Shown in pieces: positions 2,481 through 39,136 of a DNA stretch of 64,000 nucleotides; positions within the stretch are counted from its first letter, which is position 1; each line of letters opens with the position of its first letter. Location: positions 3,519,488-3,583,487 of the forward strand of contig NZ_CP054306.1 of NCBI RefSeq assembly GCF_018282115.1, written 5' to 3'. This DNA comes from Synechocystis sp. PCC 7338 (GTDB taxonomy: Bacteria > Cyanobacteriota > Cyanobacteriia > Cyanobacteriales > Microcystaceae). The translations under genes were made by a program, and so were the position numbers. The notes under the pieces were generated by a model. The model saw only the letters and a list, made by a program, of their open reading frames with translations, ran no database searches and was not told the DNA's origin.

Positions 2481-3569
2481 TTAATAATTTTCAAAACGAG
2501 TATGGGGCGCAAAGTCGCCCAAACCGTCACAGGCCATAATTCCCTGGACTGTTAAGCCTTTGACTGGGTGAGGATGGTAAAAGTTTAAAAATTTGTCTAA
2601 AGTCGTTGTCAAATCCTGGTGGGCCACAATTTGCTTCCGGAGGGCTTGGTCTAAAAAAGGAACCAACAATGCTAAAAAATCCTGACTAACTATGGTGGCT
2701 AATTGGGCCTGATCCGTTAGACATGTAAAACTTTTCTCGATTCTGCCATTACCTTCAATTTGGCAATGACTCTGTCCTCGATGCCAAATATGATCATCTT
2801 TCAACACAGATCCCCCACCAAAGTTGCGATCGCCGGGAAATATCGTATGAACACAGCCAACTGAATACATCGATGTTTGGCTACGGCCAAAATAGGGATA
2901 ACGAAAACTACAAACGTCTGTTAACAAAAACGTATTGGGATGACGTTTAGTGTGGGCTGGAGCAAAAGAATCCTGGACTGTATGGAGGGCCGCCCCAATA
3001 AATTTGAGGCCTAATTGTTTGCGCTGGTAACGGTCTAAATTTTGGCTGATTATTTGTTGTCCCGCCATTACTTCAGTGCCGTAAATCACTGTATTTTTAA
3101 TAAAATTCTGAGATAGCAGACAAGACGCTTTGGCACTAACGGCTTGTTGTTGACTTTGACCAAGATAATTACGGGTAAAATGCATCACCTGGGAGCGGAG
3201 TTCATTGTGATTTATGGTTGCGACTATAAATCTTTCCTGTTCCTGGATAGTAAATTCATCCCATTCTGGCCCCAATAAAATCCTGATTAAAATTTTTGTC
3301 AAACTTGGATCAAGTTGGGGAAAATCATTAACCACATTGCCATAGGCCAAAGGATGGGATAAATAATTTACGCCGCCGACATAATCACCGTAAAAAACCC
3401 TAGTTAATTTATCCTCGCTAAATTGGAGTCTTGTGAGCGCAAATTTGGTTAGATATTCATGCCCTGGCATAATGTAACAGGAAAAGGCTTGAGCAGGCGA
3501 AGCTCCCCAGGATAGTAACCAAGTAAACCCCAGAAAAGATAGACATTTTTGGAAAAATGCTAGCTTCAT
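2481..3569 (-). CDS. secreted protein, zinc phospholipase C / S1-P1 nuclease-like
   Basis: A predicted exported protein of about 362 aa. The ATG at 3569 follows the GH13 stop codon by 8 bp and gives a classic signal peptide (Lys, hydrophobic core, SPAQA cleavage near residue 28); a TTG two codons upstream is possible but less likely. Mature residues begin near FSCYIMPGHEYLT. A downstream ALHTVQDSFAPAH segment has the spacing HxxxDxxxxxH that matches the zinc ligands of bacterial phospholipase C and S1/P1 nuclease, and a YLSHP segment may give another histidine. The family call is inferred from this spacing; substrate (phospholipid or nucleic acid) cannot be read. It is probably cotranscribed with the upstream GH13 gene. 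Confidence 0.55.
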   Translation of the reverse strand: MKLAFFQKCLSFLGFTWLLSWGASPAQAFSCYIMPGHEYLTKFALTRLQFSEDKLTRVFYGDYVGGVNYLSHPLAYGNVVNDFPQLDPSLTKILIRILLGPEWDEFTIQEQERFIVATINHNELRSQVMHFTRNYLGQSQQQAVSAKASCLLSQNFIKNTVIYGTEVMAGQQIISQNLDRYQRKQLGLKFIGAALHTVQDSFAPAHTKRHPNTFLLTDVCSFRYPYFGRSQTSMYSVGCVHTIFPGDRNFGGGSVLKDDHIWHRGQSHCQIEGNGRIEKSFTCLTDQAQLATIVSQDFLALLVPFLDQALRKQIVAHQDLTTTLDKFLNFYHPHPVKGLTVQGIMACDGLGDFAPHTRFENY

Positions 3570-3577
3570 GGCCAAAA

Positions 3578-5044
3578 TTAGATGATGGCAAAAGCTGCTC
3601 CTGATTGGGGGGCCATGGTCAAAAGCAACCCTGCGTTGTTCCGGTCAATTGCGGTCTCGCCATTGGCGGCAAATATAGATTCAGATACGTCTATTTTATC
3701 CAAATTTATTGTTTCTGAAGATAATAAAATTTCCATTATGTTGTCACCACTATTAACAGCAACAATTATGGCTTCATCACCGTATTGCCGCTGAAAAACA
3801 TAGCCCATACCTGCCGTGGCGAGAATTTTGTAATTCCCTAATTGTAAGCATTGATAACGATGGCGCAGGGCAATCAGTTGGCGATAAAATTCCCAACAAT
3901 CTAAGTCCCAATCGATTTTTGCGGGAAAAACCCGGCGACAATCAGGGTCGTGGCCACCAGGTAAACCTACTTCGTCGCCGTAGTAAACACAGGGGGCACC
4001 GGGGAAAGTAAACATTAGTAGGAGGGCTAGGTTAACACTCTGGCGATCGCCATTGGCCAGGGTTAATAGTCGGGCCGTGTCATGGCTATTGAGCAAATTC
4101 AATTGGGTTAACTGAATTTCCCAGGGATGCCGTTGCAGTAGTTGACTAATTTTTTTCCCATAGACCTCTGCGGTTAGGGCGGGGTAAGGACGATATTCTT
4201 CCCCCCGTAGATGTTCTTTTTGCAGGCGATCGCCAATGGTGAAGGCCACTGTTGGTTTGGTGAATCGGTAATTCATCACGCCATCAAACTGATCTCCGCC
4301 TAACCAAGGACTAGCATCACACCAAATTTCCCCCACAATGTAGGCTTCCGGGTTAATAGCTTTGACCCGACGGCGAAATTCCGCCCAAAACCCCTCCGCT
4401 TTGACACAATCGGGCACATCTAAACGCCAACCATCAATGCCTTGGGCAATCCAATATTCCCCTACCCGCATTAAATATTCCCGCACGTCGGGATTATCGT
4501 GGTTAAACTGCGGCAAGGCTCGCAAATCTACCCAACCCCGATAATTAGCCGGCAAAGAACCGTCATAGGCTGATAAAGGCCAGTCTTCGATGTAAAACCA
4601 ATCTAACCAGGGGGAATGGGGCCCGTTTTCCAAAATGTCGTTGAAAAAGTAGAAACCCCGACTGGCATGGTTAAACACTCCATCCAAAACCACTTTCATC
4701 CCCCGGCCATGGGCGGCGGCCAGTAGGGCTTGGAGCGCTTGGTTGCCCCCCAGGAGAGGGTCCACTTGATAATAGTCATGGGTGTGGTAACGGTGGTTAC
4801 AGGCGGACTGGAAAATGGGAGTGAGGTACAAAGCAGTAATGCCCAAATCCTGCAGATAATCTAAATGTTCGATCACGCCCCACAGGTTTCCCCCTTTATA
4901 GCCCTCCACCGTTGGTGGTGTATCCCATGGTTCTAGCTTTGGTTGTTGAGCAACGGCGATCACCTGCTGTTGGCCGACGGCGAAACGATCCGGAAAAATT
5001 TGATAGAAAACAGCTTTTTTCACCCAATCTGGGGTTGCAACCAT
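3578..5044 (-). CDS. GH13 alpha-glucan hydrolase, neopullulanase/cyclomaltodextrinase type
   Basis: A 488-aa glycoside hydrolase family 13 enzyme acting on alpha-1,4-glucans or maltooligosaccharides. All four conserved regions are present: DGVFNH (Asp121), GWRLDV with the nucleophile Asp209, the acid/base Glu239 in GEIW, and NSHDT with Asp322. There is no signal peptide, so it is likely cytosolic and linked to glycogen or maltodextrin turnover. It lacks the long N-terminal domain of classical neopullulanases, so the protein is mostly the catalytic barrel plus a short C-terminal beta domain. It is transcribed divergently from the ABC-F gene across a 110-bp gap and is followed at once by the secreted zinc-protein gene. 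PCC 6803 annotation calls a comparable gene neopullulanase (from memory). Confidence 0.88.
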   Translation of the reverse strand: MVATPDWVKKAVFYQIFPDRFAVGQQQVIAVAQQPKLEPWDTPPTVEGYKGGNLWGVIEHLDYLQDLGITALYLTPIFQSACNHRYHTHDYYQVDPLLGGNQALQALLAAAHGRGMKVVLDGVFNHASRGFYFFNDILENGPHSPWLDWFYIEDWPLSAYDGSLPANYRGWVDLRALPQFNHDNPDVREYLMRVGEYWIAQGIDGWRLDVPDCVKAEGFWAEFRRRVKAINPEAYIVGEIWCDASPWLGGDQFDGVMNYRFTKPTVAFTIGDRLQKEHLRGEEYRPYPALTAEVYGKKISQLLQRHPWEIQLTQLNLLNSHDTARLLTLANGDRQSVNLALLLMFTFPGAPCVYYGDEVGLPGGHDPDCRRVFPAKIDWDLDCWEFYRQLIALRHRYQCLQLGNYKILATAGMGYVFQRQYGDEAIIVAVNSGDNIMEILLSSETINLDKIDVSESIFAANGETAIDRNNAGLLLTMAPQSGAAFAII

Positions 5045-5154
5045 GATGATAATAATCCTCGCAGATATTTTCAGGGACTCAAGATTGGGGGACAGGGTTT
5101 AAATGCCAATTTTTCGATAGACTGGAAGCTCAGTTTCCCCCCAGCCCTATTCCT

Positions 5155-6879
5155 ATGCTCCGACTTGAACACATCCGCAAAATTTATCCCACCGGCGAAG
5201 TTCTTAAAGATGTGAACTGGGAAGTTAAACCAGAAGAACGGGTAGGCCTGGTGGGGGTCAACGGGGCCGGAAAATCCACCCAACTCAAGATCATTATGGG
5301 GGAAGTGGAGGCCACTGCGGGGGAAATTATTCGGCCAACGGCTCTGAAAATCGCCCATTTAACCCAGGAATTTGACGTTACCCCCACCCGTACTTTACGG
5401 GAGGAAATGTGGACCGTATTCACCGAGGCGAACCAGGTTCAGGACTCCATGCACCATGTCCATCAGGCTATGGAAGTGGCCGATCCGGACACCCTGGAAG
5501 ATTTAATTCATAAATTAGATAAATTACAACGACAGTTTGAAGCCCTGGACGGTTATCGGTTGGAGTCGCAAATTGAGCGGATTTTGCCGGAAATTGGTTT
5601 TGAACCGGAGGACGGCGATCGCCTGGTCAGTTCCTTTAGTGGCGGTTGGCAGATGCGGATCAGTTTGGGCAAAATTCTACTGCAGGAGCCGGATTTATTA
5701 CTGCTGGACGAACCAACAAACCATTTAGATTTGGAAACCATTGAATGGTTAGAAATTTATCTCAAGGGCTTAAAAACCCCCATGGTGATTATTTCCCATG
5801 ACCGGGAATTTTTAGATCGTCTTTGCACCAAAATTGTCGAAACGGAACGGGGAGTTTCCACCACCTATCTGGGTAATTATTCCAGTTATCTCGTGCAAAA
5901 GGAGGAAGGGACCTTGGCCTTGGCTAGTGCCTATGAACATCAACAAAAAGCTTTGGCCAAACAACAAGCCTTTGTGGACAAATTCCGGGCAAGTGCCACC
6001 CGCAGTACCCAGGCTAAAAGTCGGGAAAAACAACTAGAAAAAATTGAGCGAGTAGAGGCCCCCGTCGGTGGTGTCAGAACCCTTAAATTCCATTTCCCCC
6101 CCGCTCCCCGCAGTGGTCGTCAAGTGGCCCTGATTGAAGATGTTTCTCATGCCTTTAACGATAAGTTACTCTTTCTGGGGGCAAATTTAGAAATTGAACG
6201 GGGCGATCGTATTGCATTTCTCGGCCCCAACGGTTGCGGAAAATCCACCCTCTTGCGGATGATTATGGGCATGGAATTGCCGGAGGAAGGCCAAATAAAA
6301 CTAGGGGAACACAACATTTTACCTGGCTATTTTGAGCAGAACCAAGCGGAAGCCTTAGACCTGGAAAAAACTGTGATGGAAACCATCCATGATGAAGTAC
6401 CCGACTGGAAAAATGAAGAAGTACGGACCCTGTTGGGGCGATTTCTCTTTTCTGGGGAAACCGTGTTTAAAAAAGTAGCCTCCCTCAGTGGCGGAGAAAA
6501 AGCCCGCTTAGCCCTGGCGAAAATGTTGCTCACTCCGGCCAACTTTCTCATCCTTGATGAGCCCACCAATCACCTGGATATTCCCGCCAAAGAAATGTTA
6601 GAGGAAGCATTACAGGAATATGAAGGCACCGTGGTGCTAGTTTCCCACGACCGTTATTTTATTTCTCGGGTCGCTAATAAGATAGTGGAAATTCGGGATG
6701 GGGAACTGGTGGTGTACAGCGGTGATTACCATTACTATTTGGAAAAATTAGAGGCGGAAAAAGCCGAGAAAAAACGTCGTCTAGCCGCTGAACAGGCGGC
6801 AAAAAAGCAAGCAGAAAAACGGGCTAAGCAAGCGGCGAAAAAAGCAGAGCAAAAAAGCAAAAATGTCATTGCTCCCTAG
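5155..6879 (+). CDS. ABC-F family ATPase
   Basis: A 574-aa protein with two ABC ATPase domains and no membrane segments, the pattern of ABC-F factors that act on the ribosome. Domain 1 has Walker A GVNGAGKST (residues 34-42) and signature SFSGGW (about 160) followed by LLLLDEPTNHLD. Domain 2 has GPNGCGKST (about 358), LSGGEKARL (about 443) and LILDEPTNHLD. The linker between them is charged and helical (about 235-300), and the C-terminus is a lysine/alanine-rich coiled extension. The exact subfamily (EttA, Uup or YdiF type) is not certain, though the length and linker suggest a Uup/YdiF-like protein. Some ABC-F proteins give antibiotic resistance, but nothing here indicates that. Confidence 0.9.
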   Translation: MLRLEHIRKIYPTGEVLKDVNWEVKPEERVGLVGVNGAGKSTQLKIIMGEVEATAGEIIRPTALKIAHLTQEFDVTPTRTLREEMWTVFTEANQVQDSMHHVHQAMEVADPDTLEDLIHKLDKLQRQFEALDGYRLESQIERILPEIGFEPEDGDRLVSSFSGGWQMRISLGKILLQEPDLLLLDEPTNHLDLETIEWLEIYLKGLKTPMVIISHDREFLDRLCTKIVETERGVSTTYLGNYSSYLVQKEEGTLALASAYEHQQKALAKQQAFVDKFRASATRSTQAKSREKQLEKIERVEAPVGGVRTLKFHFPPAPRSGRQVALIEDVSHAFNDKLLFLGANLEIERGDRIAFLGPNGCGKSTLLRMIMGMELPEEGQIKLGEHNILPGYFEQNQAEALDLEKTVMETIHDEVPDWKNEEVRTLLGRFLFSGETVFKKVASLSGGEKARLALAKMLLTPANFLILDEPTNHLDIPAKEMLEEALQEYEGTVVLVSHDRYFISRVANKIVEIRDGELVVYSGDYHYYLEKLEAEKAEKKRRLAAEQAAKKQAEKRAKQAAKKAEQKSKNVIAP

Positions 6880-7337
6880 TATTGTGCAGAAAATGAAAAC
6901 GATGGTGTTGTTTCTCCCTCTACCCTTCTGATAAGGGGGAGAAATACAAGTCTTCAGAACGTGTTTGAAAAGTCCCCCTGACCCCCCAAATTTGAGGGGA
7001 AGCAAACGCAAAGTCCCCCGGTATTGCCGGAGCTTTGGTGAGGGGATTTAGGAGGCAAAATAAGACTTTACAAACAGGCTCCCAGTATTACCTAAGCTTT
7101 AGTGGGTCGATGTAGAGGCTAACCAAAACTGCATCAGCAGGCTCTTAAACGCCATTACCAAGGTCTGAGGTGATGTTGCAAGTATCATTACTAGGCTTTC
7201 TCCGGCCAAGGGGTAAGATTGGAGCAATCCCTGGGCGAGTTTTCAAGCTTCGCCGCTGTTTAACTACGGTCTGGGGGTCGATCTGGAGGGACAGTTCAGG
7301 TTATGGTGCGAGGATGTGTTAGTTTTTGCACCTCACC
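6880..7337. other. intergenic, 458 bp, repeat-like GC-rich patches
   Basis: No credible gene is visible. Around 6965-7060 there are C-runs and G-runs in the pattern AAGTCCCCC ... GGGGATTTAGG that recur as degenerate repeats in cyanobacterial intergenic DNA. The remaining sequence is the presumed leader of the EgtD-like gene. Confidence 0.4.
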
Positions 7338-8351
7338 ATGGTCTCCGTTCAAAATTCCCCCCGTCTACAGCTCGAAAACCGTCTCCTCAGCCATCCCCAG
7401 AGCTATGTCAACCATGGCCAAGATGTCATTGTCGGTTTGCAGCAATACCCCAAAACTTTACCCCCCCACTATTTTTACGATGACCGGGGTTCTCTGCTGT
7501 TTGAGCAAATTTGTCTACTGCCGGAATATTATCCCACCCGCACGGAGGCCAGTATTCTTCAGGCGATCGCCAAGGAACTGGTGCAGATTACGGGGGCCTG
7601 TGACTTCATTGAATTGGGCAGTGGTAGTTCCACTAAAACCCGTATTTTACTGGATGCCTTTGCGGAAGAAAATATTGCCCTACGCTATATTCCCGTTGAT
7701 GTCAGTGAAGCAATTTTGAAAGAAAATGCCGAGGCTATTTTAGCCACTTATCCCCAATTAACGGTTCGGGGTTTGGTGAGTACCTATCAGTTGGCCCTGG
7801 CATCATTGCCCCACCATAATTATCCCCATCGTTTGATGGCCTTTTTAGGCAGTTCCCTCGGTAATTTTTCCGCCGACGATTGTCAAGATTTTTTTGAGCA
7901 AGTAGGGCAAGCTTTAGACCCAGGGGATTACTTTTTATTGGGGGTGGATTTATGTAAACCCGTGGATATTTTAGAGGCGGCCTATAACGATGTCCAGGGG
8001 GTGACAGCGGAATTTAATTTGAATATGTTGCGCCATTTAAATTGGCGTTTTCAGGGCAATTTTGCGTTGGATAATTTTTTCCATCGAGCCATATTTAACC
8101 AGCAAAAGTCCCAAATTGAAATGTATTTACGCAGTGGCACCAAGCAAGCGGTGCGGCTGGAAAACCTTGGTTTAACGATTAACTTCCAAGCCGGGGAAAC
8201 CATACTCACGGAAATATCCTGCAAATTTTCTCTCCAAGCTAATAATCCTAATGCCATTACCCGTCAGTTGGCGGACCATGGCCTAGAACCCTTGCAAGTA
8301 TGGACCGATGACCAGCAATGGTTTGCAGTCATTTTAAGCCAGGTTAACTAG
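7338..8351 (+). CDS. egtD: EgtD-like histidine N-alpha-methyltransferase family protein
   Basis: A SAM-dependent methyltransferase of the EgtD (DUF2260) family, about 337 aa. The ATG at 7338 is preferred to the upstream in-frame TTG at 7326. The N-terminal half carries YDDRGSLLFEQI and a YYPTRTE segment typical of this family, followed by a SAM-binding loop LGSGSSTKTR and VDVSEAIL. EgtD trimethylates histidine to hercynine, the first step of ergothioneine synthesis in cyanobacteria that make it. No egtB partner is visible nearby, so histidine as substrate is inferred from the family only. The 3' end overlaps the converging downstream gene by 8 bp. Confidence 0.75.
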   Translation: MVSVQNSPRLQLENRLLSHPQSYVNHGQDVIVGLQQYPKTLPPHYFYDDRGSLLFEQICLLPEYYPTRTEASILQAIAKELVQITGACDFIELGSGSSTKTRILLDAFAEENIALRYIPVDVSEAILKENAEAILATYPQLTVRGLVSTYQLALASLPHHNYPHRLMAFLGSSLGNFSADDCQDFFEQVGQALDPGDYFLLGVDLCKPVDILEAAYNDVQGVTAEFNLNMLRHLNWRFQGNFALDNFFHRAIFNQQKSQIEMYLRSGTKQAVRLENLGLTINFQAGETILTEISCKFSLQANNPNAITRQLADHGLEPLQVWTDDQQWFAVILSQVN

Positions 8352-30686: not shown

Positions 30687-31823
30687 ATGGCCGCTCCGAT
30701 TAAGCCTTTCTACTTCGACATCAGCGACGACGAAATTGAATTTTTTTTGGACGGGGCCAGGCAAATCCTCAAATCCGGCAGCCTAATTCTGGGCAACCAT
30801 ACCCGGGAATTTGAAACTGCCTTTGCAGAGTTTGTCGGTACAAAACACGCCATTTCAGTTAATAGCGGCACTTCGGGATTGGAAATTCTTCTGCGATTGA
30901 AACAGGCGAAAAATACCACTGTACTTGTGCCCACTAACACAAATTTTGCCACCGTTGCTTCTGTGTTGCGGGTGAACAGTGACGTGCAGTATTTGGACAT
31001 GGATCCCAAAACCTTTGCTCCCTCCCTGGCCATGGTCAAAGAAGCGGTGGAAGGCAACAGTTACCCCAAACCCTTGTCCGGTGTCTTTTGGGTGCATATC
31101 GGCGGCGTAATTTCCCCCGAATTCCCCGCAGTGATGGACTACTGCCATAGTCAGGGACTCCATGTTTGGGAAGATACGGCCCACGCCCACGGTAGTCAAC
31201 TCCAGGGCAAACAGGCGGGCAACTTAGCTGATGGGGCCTCTTTTTCTTTTTTTCCTACTAAAGTAATGACCACCTTTGAAGGCGGCATGGTCACCCTCAA
31301 CGACGACGAGGAAGATACCATTGCCCGTTCATTGCGGAATCAGGGAAAACGGGGCATGAATTTTGGCGGTCTGCATACGGATTTTGGCAATAGCACCCGC
31401 ATGACGGAAATCCATGCTCTGCTGGGACAAATTCATCTGGCTAAACTGGAGAGAATGTTGGCCACTAGGCAAAGGGCCTACGAACTAATCACAGCCCCCC
31501 TCAGGGAAGCGGGCGTTGAATTTGTTTCCACCGACCACATGGAGCGGGCTAGTCAGTACAAATTAATAGTATTGTTACCAGAAGGTAAAACCCCAGCCCA
31601 AATGAAAGACGCTCTGGCGGCAGAAGAGATTTATTTAGGGGGTACGGTGTACGAAATTCCCTGTCATTTGCAGCCGGTATTCAAAGATGTGTGTCCCGGC
31701 AAATCTTTTCCCAATGCGGAAACTTGGTGTCCCCGTCACATTTGTCCTCCTTTAACCTCCGGTACTACTGCAGAGGAAGCGGCCAGGGTGGGGGAAGCAT
31801 TGGTGCGCCATTTAAAGTCCTAA
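30687..31823 (+). CDS. DegT/DnrJ/EryC1/StrS-family aminotransferase
   Basis: A 378-aa PLP-dependent enzyme of the family that aminates nucleotide sugars or makes related amino groups. Visible signs are SVNSGTSGLEILL near residue 55, VWEDTAHAHGSQL with the Asp that holds the pyridine nitrogen, and SFFPTKVMTTFEGGM with the PLP lysine (about 193). The C-terminal GGTVYEIPCHLQP segment is family-typical. No sugar-synthesis genes are nearby, so the substrate cannot be told. It is 70 bp downstream of the thioredoxin gene. Confidence 0.85.
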   Translation: MAAPIKPFYFDISDDEIEFFLDGARQILKSGSLILGNHTREFETAFAEFVGTKHAISVNSGTSGLEILLRLKQAKNTTVLVPTNTNFATVASVLRVNSDVQYLDMDPKTFAPSLAMVKEAVEGNSYPKPLSGVFWVHIGGVISPEFPAVMDYCHSQGLHVWEDTAHAHGSQLQGKQAGNLADGASFSFFPTKVMTTFEGGMVTLNDDEEDTIARSLRNQGKRGMNFGGLHTDFGNSTRMTEIHALLGQIHLAKLERMLATRQRAYELITAPLREAGVEFVSTDHMERASQYKLIVLLPEGKTPAQMKDALAAEEIYLGGTVYEIPCHLQPVFKDVCPGKSFPNAETWCPRHICPPLTSGTTAEEAARVGEALVRHLKS

Positions 31824-31854
31824 ATTTCTTGCTCAGGAACATTGTGGCCTAATT

Positions 31855-32655
31855 TTAGCTGGCGATCGCCTCTGCCTCTTCCGTGTGATTGCCCCTTAAT
31901 AAACTGGAAATTTCATCGCTATATTTAAAAAACTCTGGTTCCCGCTTGATTTTATAAGTGCGATTTTTGGGAGTTTCTTCATCCCCCGGCAGGTTGATGG
32001 TCAGTTCCCGTTGAATGGTGCCCGGACGGGAGCTCAACACATAGACCCGTTGGGCCAGAAATACAGCCTCTTCAACGTCGTGGGTAATCATCAGAATGCT
32101 ACATTGCAGTCTTTGCCAAATGTCGATTAGATATTCATGCATCCTTTCCTTGGTTTGAATATCCAACGCCCCAAAGGGTTCGTCCATTAACAAGACCTTC
32201 GGATGGCAGGCTAAAGACCGGGCGATCGCCACCCGTTGCTTCATGCCCCCTGACAATTCCCTGGGATAGGCCTGGGCAAAATTAACCAAACCCACCACAT
32301 CTAAATAATAGCTAGCAGTGTCAAACCTTTCCTTTTGGGAACAGCCTTGGAGTTTCAGTCCAAACTCAACATTTTCCTGCACTGTCATCCAAGGAAAAAG
32401 ACTGTAGTGTTGAAAAACCATGCCCCGGTCAGCCCCTGGCCCCGTTACTTTTTGTCCATCCACATTGATGGTGCCGGAAGTGGGAGTATCTAAACCAGCA
32501 ATTAACCTCAAAAGAGTCGACTTGCCGGAACCAGAAGCCCCCACTGCACAAACAAATTCCCCGGTTTCAATGTGCATATTGATATTTTTTAGGGCCACCA
32601 CTGAACCCCGTTTGCCGACAAAAATCCGATTCAAGTCAGTTATTTCTAGATGCAT
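31855..32655 (-). CDS. guanidine ABC importer ATP-binding protein
   Basis: A 266-aa nitrate/sulfonate/taurine-type importer ATPase. Walker A is GASGSGKST (about residues 39-47), the signature is LSGGMKQRVAIARSLA and Walker B is VLLMDEPFGALD. It is the last gene of a six-gene minus-strand operon led by a guanidine hydrolase and a guanidine riboswitch. Transport of guanidine is inferred from this context and from reports that such an importer is part of the cyanobacterial guanidine system; the protein itself is generic. Confidence 0.88.
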   Translation of the reverse strand: MHLEITDLNRIFVGKRGSVVALKNINMHIETGEFVCAVGASGSGKSTLLRLIAGLDTPTSGTINVDGQKVTGPGADRGMVFQHYSLFPWMTVQENVEFGLKLQGCSQKERFDTASYYLDVVGLVNFAQAYPRELSGGMKQRVAIARSLACHPKVLLMDEPFGALDIQTKERMHEYLIDIWQRLQCSILMITHDVEEAVFLAQRVYVLSSRPGTIQRELTINLPGDEETPKNRTYKIKREPEFFKYSDEISSLLRGNHTEEAEAIAS

Positions 32656-32712: not shown

Positions 32713-33555
32713 TCACTGTTCCAAAGACCATTTACAGGTGAGTCTGAGGATGAGGCGAAATGATAAATCCAAAGCAAAGCCAATTAAGCCCAGAACTATT
32801 AAGCAGGCAAAAATTTCATCAGTTTTCAAAAATTTCTGAGCTAGCAAAATACGTTTCCCTAAACCGTTATCCGCCGCCACCAATTCCGCCACCACCACCA
32901 AGTTCCAAGCCGCCGCCATATTGATCCGGAATGCGTCAAGAATATTAGGGATAATGTAGGGGGTAATAACCTTAAATAAAACTTGTTTCCGTAATCCCCC
33001 CAGGGTATAGGTAACTTCAATTAACTCCTTGGGGATAAACTTGACCGCATCCATAATCATCAGGGTATTAAAAAATATTGTCCCAATGAAAATCAAGGCA
33101 ATTTTTGAAGCTTCATCAATGCCGAGATAAATAATTAACAGCGGAATAAAAGCTGGGGCTGGCATATAACGCACCACGCCAATAATTGGCTCCGTTAAAC
33201 TGCGTATGCTAGGAAATGTGCCCATTAAAATTCCTAAGGGAATAGCCACCAATCCCCCTAAAAAAAATCCCCCTACCACTCGACCAAAGCTAGTCAGGGA
33301 ATCTTGGATTAAAAATCCATCATTAAACAATTCTATTAAGGCTTGAACTACTGACTGGGGGGAAGGGAGAAAAACATCACTCACAGTAGGTAAAGATGAA
33401 AGCAAGGCCCACAATACCAAGGGAATGATGATCGATAAGGACATTAAGGACCATTTGAGCGATTCCGGTATTTCTCCACCAATGCGCCAAAAAACGGTGG
33501 GTTGTAGAGATTTTTTAGGGGAATAATTTGGTAACTTATCTTGGGCAATAGTCAT
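32713..33555 (-). CDS. guanidine ABC importer permease
   Basis: A 280-aa SsuC/TauC-type permease with about six hydrophobic helices and the cytoplasmic loop GGLRKQVLFKVITPYIIPNI that contacts the ATPase. It lies between the binding-protein gene and the ATPase gene in the same operon. As with the ATPase, the substrate is inferred from the riboswitch and the guanidine hydrolase upstream. Confidence 0.87.
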   Translation of the reverse strand: MTIAQDKLPNYSPKKSLQPTVFWRIGGEIPESLKWSLMSLSIIIPLVLWALLSSLPTVSDVFLPSPQSVVQALIELFNDGFLIQDSLTSFGRVVGGFFLGGLVAIPLGILMGTFPSIRSLTEPIIGVVRYMPAPAFIPLLIIYLGIDEASKIALIFIGTIFFNTLMIMDAVKFIPKELIEVTYTLGGLRKQVLFKVITPYIIPNILDAFRINMAAAWNLVVVAELVAADNGLGKRILLAQKFLKTDEIFACLIVLGLIGFALDLSFRLILRLTCKWSLEQ

Positions 33556-33650: not shown

Positions 33651-34679
33651 CTAAGCTTGGCCAGCTAATGTTTTAAAAAACTGGGAGTCAAGGATTTTAT
33701 TTAAGTCAGGAGACTGTTTAATAAAGCCGACTTTAATCATGAAATCTGCCATTTTTTGGGCGGCAAAAGGCATGTGGACCATGCTATCTCCGGGACTAAA
33801 AGCTTCTAAGTTTTCCTCCAGAGTCAAAAAGCGGGTGCCATCTTTAAATAGTTGCAGTTCCTCTTGGCTTACCCCTGCCCGTTTGGCCATAATTTCATCG
33901 GATTTTTCAGGATTTTCTTCCATGAACTTACGAATATCAAACCAAGTGTTGACTAAAGCTTGAACCTGCTCTGGCTTTTCTTGAATTAATTTTTCCGTCA
34001 CTACTAAAAGGTCGGGAATGGCTCCGGGAAATTCAGCGGAAGTAACTAATTCTTTGGAACCTTCTCGTTTGAGAGCCGTTAACCAAAAGGGAGGAAATGC
34101 CCCCACTGCGTCCACCTGTCCCGCCGCAAAGGCCGCCGCCGCCGCCCCAGTTTCTAGGGGTTTGATCACGACGTCGTCCCTGGTCATGCCTTCCCGTTCC
34201 AGGGCTAAACTAAGCAAAAAATCATCCACTACCCCTTCTTCGATCGCCACGGTTTTGCCTTTGAGATCCTGAACAGTATTAATATCGGCGGTGACAATAA
34301 TCTTGTCGTTGCCAGCGGAGTTGTCGTTAACCAGTACGGCTACTTCTCCGTTGACCGCTTCCCCGGCAAAGGAAATGGTGTCGTTCAAGGTTTGACTATT
34401 GCCGTCCAATTGTCCCGCCGCCAGGGCCTGCATGGATTCCAGATAACCATCAAACCATTTCATTTCTACGTTGACCCCATTTTTGGCAAATAGGCCTTCT
34501 TCTTCGGCGATCGCCCAGGGCCACCAACCAGCCCAGTTGCTGTAACCAATAACGATGGGAGGCCCTTCGGGGGTGGGGGTAGGGGATTGGGATTGCTCTG
34601 GAGTTTGGGCACAACTAACGGTCAAAAGTATCGTACTACAAAAAATTAAGATTAAAGAAATTAAACTACGTCTCGGCAT
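33651..34679 (-). CDS. guanidine ABC importer substrate-binding lipoprotein
   Basis: A 342-aa NMT1/SsuA-like periplasmic binding protein. The ATG at 34679 is chosen because GGAGGAA lies about 8 bases upstream; the GTG five codons earlier overlaps that site. The N-terminus MPRRSLISLILIFC leads to a lipobox-like LTVSC, so it is probably a lipoprotein. The mature part begins with a proline-rich linker, then IGYSNWAGWWPWAIAEEEG, a family-like ligand pocket rich in tryptophan that would suit a cationic planar ligand. The ligand is inferred to be guanidine from the operon. Confidence 0.85.
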   Translation of the reverse strand: MPRRSLISLILIFCSTILLTVSCAQTPEQSQSPTPTPEGPPIVIGYSNWAGWWPWAIAEEEGLFAKNGVNVEMKWFDGYLESMQALAAGQLDGNSQTLNDTISFAGEAVNGEVAVLVNDNSAGNDKIIVTADINTVQDLKGKTVAIEEGVVDDFLLSLALEREGMTRDDVVIKPLETGAAAAAFAAGQVDAVGAFPPFWLTALKREGSKELVTSAEFPGAIPDLLVVTEKLIQEKPEQVQALVNTWFDIRKFMEENPEKSDEIMAKRAGVSQEELQLFKDGTRFLTLEENLEAFSPGDSMVHMPFAAQKMADFMIKVGFIKQSPDLNKILDSQFFKTLAGQA

Positions 34680-34765
34680 CAGAAGTTCCTCCACTAATAA
34701 CTGTTACTATATAAAGCTAAAAAGCAAAATTTTACTGTGTTGATTTTGACCTTTTAAATTAGGAT

Positions 34766-35455
34766 TTAAACATTAGCGATGGCAGGGACTTTGATTTGCT
34801 GTTTAACCCAACTAAACCAAGTAGCTAAACCTTCTCCGGTTTTAGCGGACACAGGAATGATGGTTACATGGGGATTCATAGAACGGACATTGGCGGCTAA
34901 TTTTTCTAAATCAATGTCTAAATGGGGCATTAGATCAATTTTGGTAATTAACAAACAATCTGCTTCCTGAAACATGATGGGATATTTCAGGGGTTTATCC
35001 TCTCCCTCCGTGATGCTCAACAGAGCAACTTTGGCATGTTCCCCCACTTCAAATTCCGCTGGGCATACCAAATTTCCGACATTTTCGACCAGCACTAAAT
35101 CAAATTCTTGGGGATTATAATCCTCTTTAAAACGATGGATCCCCCCCGCCACCATTTTGGAGTCTAAATGACAGGAACGGCCGGTGTTAATGGCAATTAC
35201 AGGACTACCATATTGCCGCAGACGATCGGCATCTAATTCGGTGGTCATATCCCCTTCAATTACGGCCATTTTTAACTCACCTTGGAGGGCCGCCAGGGTT
35301 TTTTCTAACAGGACGGTTTTGCCTGCTCCTGGGCTACTCATTAGGTTTAGACAAGTAATTCCCCAGTCATCGAAGTGTGCTCTATTATGGTCTGCCCCAG
35401 CCTGGTTGGCATGGAGCAAATTCAGACCGATCGCCGTGTCAATGGATTGGTGCAT
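34766..35455 (-). CDS. HypB-like nickel-insertion GTPase (GhaB)
   Basis: A 229-aa P-loop GTPase of the HypB family. The P-loop MSSPGAGKT is near residue 40, [12 protein letters not shown] carries the metal-site cysteine shared by HypB proteins, and KIDLMPHLD is the guanine-specificity motif. It lacks a long N-terminal His-rich or CxxCGC metal tail. No hydrogenase genes are in the window; the neighbour is the guanidine hydrolase, for which HypA/HypB-like helpers (GhaA/GhaB) that supply Ni2+ are known in Synechocystis. Role: GTP-dependent nickel delivery to the hydrolase. Confidence 0.88.
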
Positions 35456-35516: not shown

Positions 35517-35879
35517 TTAAACCGGAGTGCATTGATGATGTTCAATGCGGTCAATTTTTAGCTCTCGCCCAGAGCGAATATCCTCCATAGGCGATCGACA
35601 GGTTGGGCAAGAATATTGCGAACCAATTTCGGGGCGATATTCCGCTTGACAGGGGTGGCAATAGGCAACTAAAGGCACATCTTTGATCACTAATTCCACT
35701 CCCTCCAAAAAGGTTTGCTTGGTCTGCACTTCAAAAGCAAATTGCAAACTCATTGGTTCCACGCAGGTGAACTGACCCACAAGAAGGTGGATCTTGGTAA
35801 TTTTGGGTTTTACAGTTTGTTGATCAAACCAATCCTGAACGGTCATAATCAGGGCTTTGGTCATGTCTGTTTCATGCAT
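35517..35879 (-). CDS. HypA-like nickel chaperone (GhaA)
   Basis: A 120-aa HypA-family protein. The ATG at 35879 gives MHETDMTKAL, where His2 and Glu3 are the nickel-binding residues of HypA; the frame open to 35933 upstream is not used. A zinc ribbon is visible as CHPC, 13 residues, then CPTC. It lies 75 bp after the hydrolase gene and 61 bp before the HypB-like gene. Together with HypB it probably loads nickel into the guanidine hydrolase and not into a hydrogenase. Confidence 0.9.
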   Translation of the reverse strand: MHETDMTKALIMTVQDWFDQQTVKPKITKIHLLVGQFTCVEPMSLQFAFEVQTKQTFLEGVELVIKDVPLVAYCHPCQAEYRPEIGSQYSCPTCRSPMEDIRSGRELKIDRIEHHQCTPV

Positions 35880-35954
35880 TTTTGCCTCTCCCAAAGGCGA
35901 TCGCCGATTATTTTGGAGCCATAAATTTGGCAATGACTAGTCAAGTTAAACTTA

Positions 35955-37127
35955 TTATTGCCAAGGCTGATCAACTTCCATGTTGGCTTCCGCATGGATA
36001 TAGGCAGGTTTTTCTTTACGGGGTAATTGTTCCGAAACCACCAGATGGGCCATGGTGTCACAAATTACCCTGGTGGCCATCAAGGAAGTCATATCGCTAA
36101 TGTCGTAGGGAGGAGAAACTTCCACCACTTCCATGCCACAAACATTAGTTTCCCGAATAATTCGCTTTAGCAAATAGAGGGCTTCCCGGGGCAATAAACC
36201 GCCGGGTTCTGGCCAGCCGGTACCGGGGACAAAGCCCGCATCAATGCAGTCAATATCAAAACTAATCCAGACACAATCAGTGCCATCGGTGGCCCGGGCA
36301 ATGGCGAAGTCCGCCGCCGCATCTAAGCCCATTTCGGTAATATCGGTGACGGTCAAGATATTGGTGGCCCTTTCCCGACAAACTTTCACTCCCTGCCGGG
36401 GTACTTGCCAGCCGCCAATGCCCAATTGGACTAAATTCTTGGCTGGGGCGTTGGCCATGTTGGTGGCATGGAACCAGGGACAGGTATGCATCCGTTCGTC
36501 TAAATCCGTTTCCTGGGTATCCACATGGCGATCGAAATGGATGATGCCAACTTTTTTATCCCCCAGGTGGCGGCAGATGCCCCGCACGGTGGGAAAACCA
36601 ATGGAATGGTCACCGCCCAGAATAATCGGAAAGGCCCCAGAGCTGAAAATGTGGGCAATACCTTTGGAAATTTGGTCAAAGGATTTTTCGTTGTTGGCGG
36701 GAATGGTGAAAATGTCCCCCACGTCACAGAGGCTAATTTGCTCCCGTAAATCCACCCCCATTTCAAAGTTGTAAGGGGTATAAAGGGCCGAAATACGACG
36801 AATGCCCTGGGGACCAAAGCGGGTACCCGGTCGATAGGTGGTCCCGGAATCATGGGGCACTCCGACGATCGCCACGTCGTAATTGCCGACGTTACGGACA
36901 TCCTCCACATAGGGAGCTTTCATGAAGGTGTTAATGCCCGCATAGTGGGGCAGTTCCCCCCGGGAAAAGGTGGGAATGGAGCGGTCTTTAATGCTGGCGG
37001 CGGCTTCTAAACCATAGGTCAGCCCTTGATCAACTTCCTGTTGCCAACCGGTTAGGGGTAACCGAGTTTCCTTCAATAGGGCTTCTTCGGCCTCAGAAGG
37101 GGGACGGAATGGGGTGGCATCGCTCAT
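35955..37127 (-). CDS. gdmH: nickel-dependent guanidine hydrolase (ureohydrolase family)
   Basis: A 390-aa arginase/agmatinase-fold enzyme. Metal-site motifs are GGDHSIGFP (about residue 172), IHFDRHVDTQ (about 198; the usual DAHxD becomes DRHVD) and SFDIDCIDAGFVPG (about 290). It is longer at the N-terminus than agmatinases (residues 1-75). PCC 6803 Sll1077, the same gene as recalled, was formerly called agmatinase but hydrolyses guanidine to urea and ammonium with Ni2+. The riboswitch upstream and the HypA/HypB-like genes and importer downstream all agree with this. Agmatinase activity is therefore the less likely reading. Confidence 0.9.
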   Translation of the reverse strand: MSDATPFRPPSEAEEALLKETRLPLTGWQQEVDQGLTYGLEAAASIKDRSIPTFSRGELPHYAGINTFMKAPYVEDVRNVGNYDVAIVGVPHDSGTTYRPGTRFGPQGIRRISALYTPYNFEMGVDLREQISLCDVGDIFTIPANNEKSFDQISKGIAHIFSSGAFPIILGGDHSIGFPTVRGICRHLGDKKVGIIHFDRHVDTQETDLDERMHTCPWFHATNMANAPAKNLVQLGIGGWQVPRQGVKVCRERATNILTVTDITEMGLDAAADFAIARATDGTDCVWISFDIDCIDAGFVPGTGWPEPGGLLPREALYLLKRIIRETNVCGMEVVEVSPPYDISDMTSLMATRVICDTMAHLVVSEQLPRKEKPAYIHAEANMEVDQPWQ

Positions 37128-37146
37128 AAGTAGTTACTCAGCTATA

Positions 37147-37209
37147 AAACAAAATTTGCCCAGGAGTTATTAATGACACCCAAGCACTGGTCATTAAAGT
37201 CTCCCGGGC
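37147..37209 (-). terminator. riboswitch expression platform: terminator alternative to aptamer
   Basis: On the minus strand the aptamer 3' arm GCCCGGGAG (37209-37201) can pair fully, with one G-U, to CTCCTGGGC (37166-37158), enclosing an inner hairpin TTAATGAC / GTCATTAA (37197-37170). A U-rich tract (AAATTTTGTTTT) follows at once. This has the form of an intrinsic terminator that would form when guanidine is absent. Confidence 0.7.
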
Positions 37210-37308
37210 TTTTGTCCCGCCGTGTAGCTAGTGGCAAAAATCTTTACAAAACCTAGCCTGTTTCTCTCGGACCAGCCATTCCCCACATCCGGGAATCGGA
37301 ACCCTAGA
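37199..37308 (-). promoter_or_regulatory. guanidine-I (ykkC subtype) riboswitch aptamer
   Basis: Reading the minus strand 5' to 3', the conserved segments of the guanidine-I class appear in order: CTAGGGTTCCG (37307-37297), GGTCCGAGAG (37273-37264), and ACACGGCGGGACAAAAGCCC ending in GGGAGA (37225-37200). Spacing is right for the two-stem aptamer. It stands 72 bp before the gdmH start. Binding of guanidinium should turn on the guanidine operon. Confidence 0.92.
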
Positions 37309-37322
37309 AACAATACCCCCTA

Positions 37323-37549: not shown

Positions 37550-38059
37550 ATGCAAGAAGCTGCCATCCCATCCAATGAACAGCAGCGCTTAGCCCATCTA
37601 CAGAATCTCAACATTCTTGATACGCCAAGCGATGAGAAGTTTGAGCGCATTACTCGGCTATTGTGTCGGGTATTGGATATGCCAGTGGCCGCCATTTCTT
37701 TGATCGATGAAAATCGCCAATGGTTTAAATCCATTCGAGGCTCGGACCTAACCGAAACTCCCCGCGTTATTTCCTTTTGTGCCCACACAATTTTGGAGGA
37801 TCGCACCCTAATTATCCCCGATGCCCTATCCGACCCCCGTTTTGCCGATAACCCCCTGGTGATAGATCCGCCCCACATCCGATTTTATGCTGGTCATCCC
37901 CTAAAAATGCTGGATAACATTCATGTGGGCACCCTCTGTGTCTATGACACAAAGCCCAGGGAAATGTCCGACGACGATATTCAGTTTTTAGAAGACCTGT
38001 CAGTTACCGTAGCCAATGAGCTAAAGGCCTACATGCTTAAGAGCTTCTTTACGGTTTAG
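37550..38059 (+). CDS. stand-alone GAF-domain protein
   Basis: A 169-aa protein that is essentially a single GAF domain. It begins with the short helix EQQRLAHLQNLNILDTPSDEKFERI and continues through PVAAISLIDENRQWFKS and SFCAHTIL to HVGTLCVYD, closely parallel to the N-terminal half of the next gene. No chromophore-binding cysteine of the cyanobacteriochrome type and no output domain is present. It probably arose by duplication of the adjacent GAF-GGDEF gene and loss of the GGDEF part. It could act as a partner or competitor of that protein. Confidence 0.88.
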   Translation: MQEAAIPSNEQQRLAHLQNLNILDTPSDEKFERITRLLCRVLDMPVAAISLIDENRQWFKSIRGSDLTETPRVISFCAHTILEDRTLIIPDALSDPRFADNPLVIDPPHIRFYAGHPLKMLDNIHVGTLCVYDTKPREMSDDDIQFLEDLSVTVANELKAYMLKSFFTV

Positions 38060-38104: not shown

Positions 38105-39136
38105 ATGGAAGCTAAATTACCGCAAAATGAGGAGCAACGCCTGACCGTTTTAAGGCAACTCAACATTCTGGATACTCCAATCGAAGAGAGATTTGAGCGC
38201 ATTACCCGTATGGTCTGCCGGTCTCTCAAAGTACCCATCGCCGCTGTATCGATGGTTGATGAATCACGCCAGTGGTTTAAATCCATTCAAGGACTAACTG
38301 CTTCCGAAACTCCCCGGGAAATTGCCTTTTGCGCCCACGCCATTCTGAAGGATGAATTGCTCTTGGTCAAAGATGCCACCCAGGATGAACGTTTTGCCGA
38401 TAATCCTTTGGTAACCAATGAGCCTTTCATCCGATTTTATGCTGGTTATCCCCTTAACTTGGGTCAAGACTTCCATGTGGGAACCCTCTGTGCCATTGAT
38501 CGGGTGCCCCGAGATCTGTCGGTGGAAGAGCAAGAAATCCTCTACGACCTTTCCAAAATGGTGGAGTCCGAACTAGCGGCGATCGCCCTGTCCGAGGCTC
38601 AAATGCAGTTAATTCAAGAATTGGACGAACTTGAAAGGGTAGCCATGCTCGATAGCCTGACCAGGCTATGGAATCGCTTGGGTATCGAAACCCTACTACA
38701 AAGGGAGTGGGACTACGCCACCCGCAAAAATTCCCCCATTGCCATTGTCATGATTGATTTTGACAACTTCAAGCAGATCAATGATCAATACGGTCATCTA
38801 GTGGGCGATGAGGTTCTACAGGGTAGTTCACGTTTAATCATTTCCGCACTGCGTTCCTATGATGCTTTGGGAAGATGGGGAGGAGATGAATTTATGCTTA
38901 TCCTGCCTGGTTCCAGCCGAGAACAAACCGCCCTACTCCTAGAAAGAATTCAAGCCACCATTGCCCAAAATCCAGTGCCCACGTCCGCAGGGCCAATGAC
39001 AATCAGTTTGAGTATGGGGGGAGTCAGTGTGTTTGCTAAGCAGAGTGACGAACTCAAGCATTGGGTGGAACAGGCAGATAATCAGTTGATGAAGATTAAG
39101 CGCCTTGGTAAGGGCAATTTTCGGTTGGCAGAATAA
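38105..39136 (+). CDS. GAF-GGDEF diguanylate cyclase
   Basis: A 343-aa protein with an N-terminal GAF domain (about 15-165) and a C-terminal GGDEF domain (about 185-340). The active site is GRWGGDEFMLIL, intact for c-di-GMP synthesis, and an RSYD inhibitory-site motif lies five residues before it. Its GAF domain is very similar to the upstream stand-alone GAF protein, and the two genes are 45 bp apart on the same strand. There is no EAL domain or membrane segment. The ligand of the GAF domain is unknown. PCC 6803 has the equivalent gene near this place, recalled as slr1143. Confidence 0.9.
   Translation: MEAKLPQNEEQRLTVLRQLNILDTPIEERFERITRMVCRSLKVPIAAVSMVDESRQWFKSIQGLTASETPREIAFCAHAILKDELLLVKDATQDERFADNPLVTNEPFIRFYAGYPLNLGQDFHVGTLCAIDRVPRDLSVEEQEILYDLSKMVESELAAIALSEAQMQLIQELDELERVAMLDSLTRLWNRLGIETLLQREWDYATRKNSPIAIVMIDFDNFKQINDQYGHLVGDEVLQGSSRLIISALRSYDALGRWGGDEFMLILPGSSREQTALLLERIQATIAQNPVPTSAGPMTISLSMGGVSVFAKQSDELKHWVEQADNQLMKIKRLGKGNFRLAE

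Follow-up and report, generated by a model that had tools for sequence, protein, structure and literature searches.

Guanidine assimilation in cyanobacteria and its regulation by a riboswitch are reportedly the subject of a 2025 PNAS paper, and GdmH is said to be that of a Nature paper from 2022. In PCC 6803, according to passages of PMC8390497, Sll1077 is a guanidine-degrading enzyme with a predicted riboswitch upstream; hypA, hypB, and sll1080-1082 share operons with sll1077, and their levels are raised in guanidine-producing strains. An excerpt of PMC10094980 assigns GdmH, GhaA, GhaB, and the Sll1080-1082 importer to a single operon. Two reviews, each represented here by selected passages (PMC12186494 and PMC12930504), treat the same PCC 6803 system; the former assigns guanidine import to the ABC importer and describes guanidine-I riboswitches as usually working as ON switches. 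The guanidine system has also been compared with that of comammox bacteria (PMC11410670, in excerpt), and sections of PMC13226834 and PMC13390492 cite the PNAS paper for the guanidine riboswitch as a cyanobacterial expression tool.

The window that we analyzed, a stretch of 64 kb in all, carries what is almost certainly the counterpart of the sll1077-sll1082 guanidine operon with its guanidine-I riboswitch, in a strain close to PCC 6803 (Table 1). A sequence-only reading of this DNA had described a guanidine riboswitch at the head of a complete operon for guanidine uptake and hydrolysis. That description is correct, and the same system is already in print, in the passages cited above, for the near-identical strain PCC 6803. 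Our analysis establishes the sequence parts of this unit, the families to which its proteins belong, and the pairing potential of its leader.

Table 1. Features of the guanidine locus (positions are those of the window)
Feature	Position	Strand	Evidence
Guanidine-I riboswitch aptamer	37199..37318	-	RF00442, 87.4 bits versus 63, full-length model
Shared segment: aptamer 3' end and 5' arm of predicted terminator stem	37201..37209	-	9/9 pairing; overlaps the final aptamer helix as aligned by Rfam
Predicted intrinsic terminator, 3' arm	37158..37166	-	Paired with 37201-37209 in the leader's minimum-energy fold
U-rich tract after terminator stem	37144..37157	-	AAA first, then U-rich, one G inside
gdmH, Ni-dependent guanidine hydrolase (ureohydrolase family)	35955..37127	-	Pfam Arginase; 381/390 identical to PDB 7esr/7oi1
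hypA-like nickel chaperone gene (counterpart of ghaA in PCC 6803)	35517..35933, likely start ATG 35879	-	TIGR00100, 134.5 bits; Pfam HypA
hypB-like nickel GTPase gene (counterpart of ghaB in PCC 6803)	34766..35455	-	TIGR00073, 315.1 bits; Pfam cobW (CobW/HypB/UreG)
ABC importer substrate-binding protein (SsuA/NMT1 type)	33651..34694, likely start ATG 34679	-	TIGR01728, 337 bits; Pfam NMT1_2
ABC importer permease	32713..33555	-	Pfam BPD_transp_1
ABC importer ATPase, last gene of unit	31855..32655	-	Pfam ABC_tran

An Rfam covariance-model search of the window confirmed the guanidine-I aptamer that had been claimed before gdmH: the minus-strand match at 37318-37199 scored 87.4 bits (E = 2.8e-14) against a gathering threshold of 63 bits for RF00442, and it spans model positions 1 to 107 of 107, that is, it is not truncated. 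The coordinates first proposed, 37195-37310, gave the right place; their exact ends, however, were a few bases off those that Rfam assigns. Nothing else in the window reached gathering level in Rfam, and no further guanidine-I match was found in the 3.83-Mb genome. Across a phylum sample of 386 genomes, 120 had a guanidine-I match at E ≤ 0.001 (118 above the cut-off). By analogy with PCC 6803, the aptamer probably binds guanidine.

The protein encoded directly downstream shares 381 of 390 residues with the guanidine hydrolase of PCC 6803 (PDB 7esr and 7oi1; 892.7 bits), the nine differences being our count by eye from the alignment; these nine differences mark the window's strain as distinct from, but close to, PCC 6803. 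Next came the guanidinase of Nitrospira inopinata (9fek; 575.5 bits), and none of the remaining 20 in the list of 22 matches exceeded 173.6 bits; among these 22, GdmH is thus nearer to characterized guanidine hydrolases than to other ureohydrolases. The NCBIfam agmatinase equivalog was barely over its cut-off on GdmH (175.8 versus 174.3), which agrees with the old annotation of the family; PDB records 7esr and 7oi1 carry the name "probable agmatinase 2." Nickel-dependent conversion of guanidine to urea and ammonium is reported, in the passages of PMC8390497 and PMC12186494 available, for the 97.7% identical PCC 6803 enzyme, and GdmH from the window probably shares this activity. The near-identity of the two enzymes, together with the PCC 6803 literature, in which these six genes make up a guanidine operon, supports the proposal that the unit serves guanidine uptake and breakdown.

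How the aptamer might control these genes is suggested by the leader, in which its 3' end (37209-37201) can pair at nine of nine positions, one of them G-U, with 37166-37158, an arm that ends 30 bases ahead of the gdmH start codon. This stem is present in the leader's minimum-energy fold, whose energy was −63 kcal/mol compared with −52.32 (SD, 4.25) for shuffles, 4 of 200 of which equaled or surpassed it. In the Rfam alignment, bases 37209-37201 also belong to the final aptamer helix, so the terminator and aptamer folds should be mutually exclusive; a predicted terminator of this kind fits the usual guanidine-I ON switch. When guanidine is lacking, pairing of the two arms would create an intrinsic terminator before gdmH; when it is present, the aptamer would hold 37209-37201 in its own last helix, the terminator would not form, and the six genes would be transcribed. 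Judged from the leader sequence, termination is very probably the step on which this switch acts. The AAA that precedes the U tract and the G that interrupts it speak against a clean terminator in the window, and the terminator's inner loop folds only slightly better than its shuffles (z = −0.7). A simple terminator scan returned 14 candidates versus 8.6 (SD, 3.2) in shuffles, which is within about two SD; being limited to loops of 3 to 8 bases, the scan is blind to the terminator of the switch. A comparably simple promoter scan identified no promoter: its 14 promoter-like sites compare with 9.3 (SD, 2.7) in shuffles, an excess also within about two SD. Folding of 31760-31900 gave no clear terminator at the end of the operon.

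For comparison with the window, we searched genome contigs for gdmH relatives and kept the best 80 of 377. An aptamer was located upstream of gdmH in 69 of these 80 loci: 58 were recognized by a motif pattern and 11 by a gathering-level Rfam match among the 22 loci without the pattern (4 of 11 and 7 of 11 in two batches). The fetched stretch held no gathering-level aptamer in 11 of the 80; L018 has <400 bases upstream of gdmH. Pairing was then scored in 70 leaders, those of the 69 aptamer-bearing loci plus the window. A loose test, calling for 7 of 9 pairs and 5 T in 8, was passed by 67 of 70 leaders, but shuffles already gave 26 to 29 of 70; since the 7-of-9 criterion discriminates so poorly, it was abandoned for a strict one of 9 of 9 pairs plus a U-rich tail. 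By the latter, 55 of 70 leaders passed, including that of the window, whereas shuffles averaged 0.48 and never exceeded 3; with one duplicate removed, the figures were little different, at 54 of 69 versus 0.55. Three leaders failed even the loose test: L026 lacks a convincing pairing arm and has a positive inner-loop z, while L070 and L073 have both arms and too few T. Of 68 distinct inner loops between the arms, 60 were more stable than their own shuffles by z < −1 (median z, −2.8), even as the loop sequence varied from leader to leader. Because related sequences are not independent, these leader counts show conservation and not a probability. That the terminator platform is conserved among cyanobacterial leaders adds modestly to the case.

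The same leaders help to weigh a translational switch, in which the aptamer's end, by pairing with RNA farther downstream, would block the gdmH ribosome site instead of terminating transcription. Such masking would suit the imperfect U tract and short leader of the window, with its 3' arm so near the start codon, as well as some relatives whose arm stops just 19 to 23 bases short of that codon. The arm-to-start distance, however, runs from 19 to 401 bases (starts inferred from tblastn), too variable for a shared mask, and an arm with a U-rich tail behind it is present in 67 of 70 leaders when scored loosely and in 55 of 70 when scored strictly. Because the distance varies so widely, we judge a translational mechanism very unlikely and favor the predicted terminator.

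All six genes are on the minus strand with each gap <100 bases, and the gene after that for the ATPase (30687-31823) is convergent with the operon. Family scans agree with the name given to each gene in the sequence-only reading and with the order claimed: gdmH, HypA-like, HypB-like, binding protein, permease, and ATPase. The HypA and HypB equivalog scores exceed their cut-offs (88.1 for TIGR00100 and 121.2 for TIGR00073). The span originally given to the finding, 35955-37310, covers the switch and gdmH; the six-gene unit, however, extends down to 31855. At other places in the genome lie a further ureohydrolase match (27% identity), two more HypB matches (44% and, more distantly, 27%), a second HypA, a distant match to the binding protein (26%), and a urease alpha match. 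Since separate copies of the ureohydrolase, HypB, and HypA exist, those of the operon are probably dedicated to guanidine; the presence of urease, in turn, suggests that the urea product would be usable.

Divergent from the operon are two adjacent plus-strand genes, 37550-38059 and 38105-39136, whose N-terminal sequences look alike by eye; this suggests a tandem duplication. The first encodes a GAF-domain protein (Pfam scan), and the second continues into what we take, by its motif, to be a GGDEF domain. Farther away in the window, 7326-8351 on the plus strand encodes a histidine-specific methyltransferase (Pfam Methyltransf_33, 376 bits), a family that includes the ergothioneine enzyme EgtD.

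Gene order in the relatives bears on the importer. Among the best 80 of 377, 35 loci have best matches to all six genes in the window's order, some with extra genes between; 32 have gdmH-hypA-hypB alone in the fetched stretch, some of them cut by contig ends; and the other 13 differ in gene subset or order, L011 and L069 having rearranged blocks. In L011 (Picosynechococcus sp. PCC 7117; 3027-8167), hypA, hypB, and the importer genes come first and gdmH last, and the fetched 15 kb has no guanidine-I match at gathering level. The 32 loci that show no importer in the fetched stretch could be read to mean that it is a separate unit that merely follows hypB and serves another substrate, such as taurine, sulfonate, nitrate, or bicarbonate. 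The best families of the binding protein, the SsuA and NMT1 types, point the same way, as do its nearest solved relatives, mostly taurine-, nitrate-, and sulfonate-named proteins, all of them weak matches. This reading must be set against the shared strand and short gaps in the window, the recurrence of a same-order importer in the 35 loci, the raised levels of the importer genes in guanidine-producing PCC 6803 strains (PMC8390497, in part), and the assignment of guanidine import in the consulted passages of PMC12186494. We consider a separate importer extremely unlikely; an importer belonging to the guanidine operon is the reading that we adopt, with guanidine as its putative substrate on the strength of operon position and the PCC 6803 literature.

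Some relatives have additional genes within the unit. In 6 of the best 80 of 377 loci (L003, L005, L006, L015, L027, and L032), a type III glutamine synthetase-like frame of 456 to 493 codons lies between hypA and hypB; the window has no such frame. TIGR03105 scored 566 to 583 bits (cut-off, 469.6) on the frames from L003, L005, and L032, the three of the six that were scanned. A riboswitch precedes gdmH, by motif pattern, in L003, L005, L006, L015, and L027, and the fetched stretch of L032 has no aptamer at gathering level. It is conceivable, though rather unlikely, that some cyanobacterial guanidine operons took up a gene for type III glutamine synthetase; this enzyme could then assimilate ammonium right where it is released, or have guanidine as a substrate. 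Other genes, including short unknown frames, are inserted between gdmH and hypA: the insert in L020 is a candidate methyltransferase with a below-cut-off match to BioC, and those in four loci are presumably glutathione-transferase-like.

Taken with the switch described above, the operon would work as follows: the ABC importer would bring guanidine into the cell, the HypA/HypB-like pair would load nickel into GdmH, and GdmH would convert guanidine to urea and ammonium, with the genome's urease then handling the urea. Induction of the six genes by guanidine and nickel loading by the HypA/HypB-like pair are expected from what is described for PCC 6803. A complete published regulatory and metabolic unit was thus recoverable from a reading of raw sequence. 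Its significance is twofold: it offers a route for scavenging nitrogen from guanidine and a switch for inducible expression in engineered cyanobacteria; both are recognized in the passages available from PMC12186494, PMC13226834, and PMC13390492.

Compared with described systems, the locus is nearest to the sll1077-sll1082 operon of PCC 6803, with which it shares the riboswitch class, the six genes, and 381 of 390 GdmH residues (PMC8390497, PMC10094980, and PMC12186494, each in part); nine GdmH residues differ, and this comparison, made at the level of the protein and the literature, revealed no difference in function. The Nitrospira inopinata cluster likewise has a guanidine-I riboswitch before a guanidinase of the same family (PMC11410670; PDB 9fek); it differs, according to excerpts of that paper, in that its permease is of the APC type, where the window has an ABC importer, and in the absence of nickel chaperone genes nearby. 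The closest named gdmH record, in a list from which the window genome's own records may be excluded, is that of Synechocystis salina LEGE 00031 (L002), which matches the window in GdmH (99%), in the six genes and their order, in the aptamer, and in the terminator arms, and differs from it by small changes in the terminator loop and U tract.
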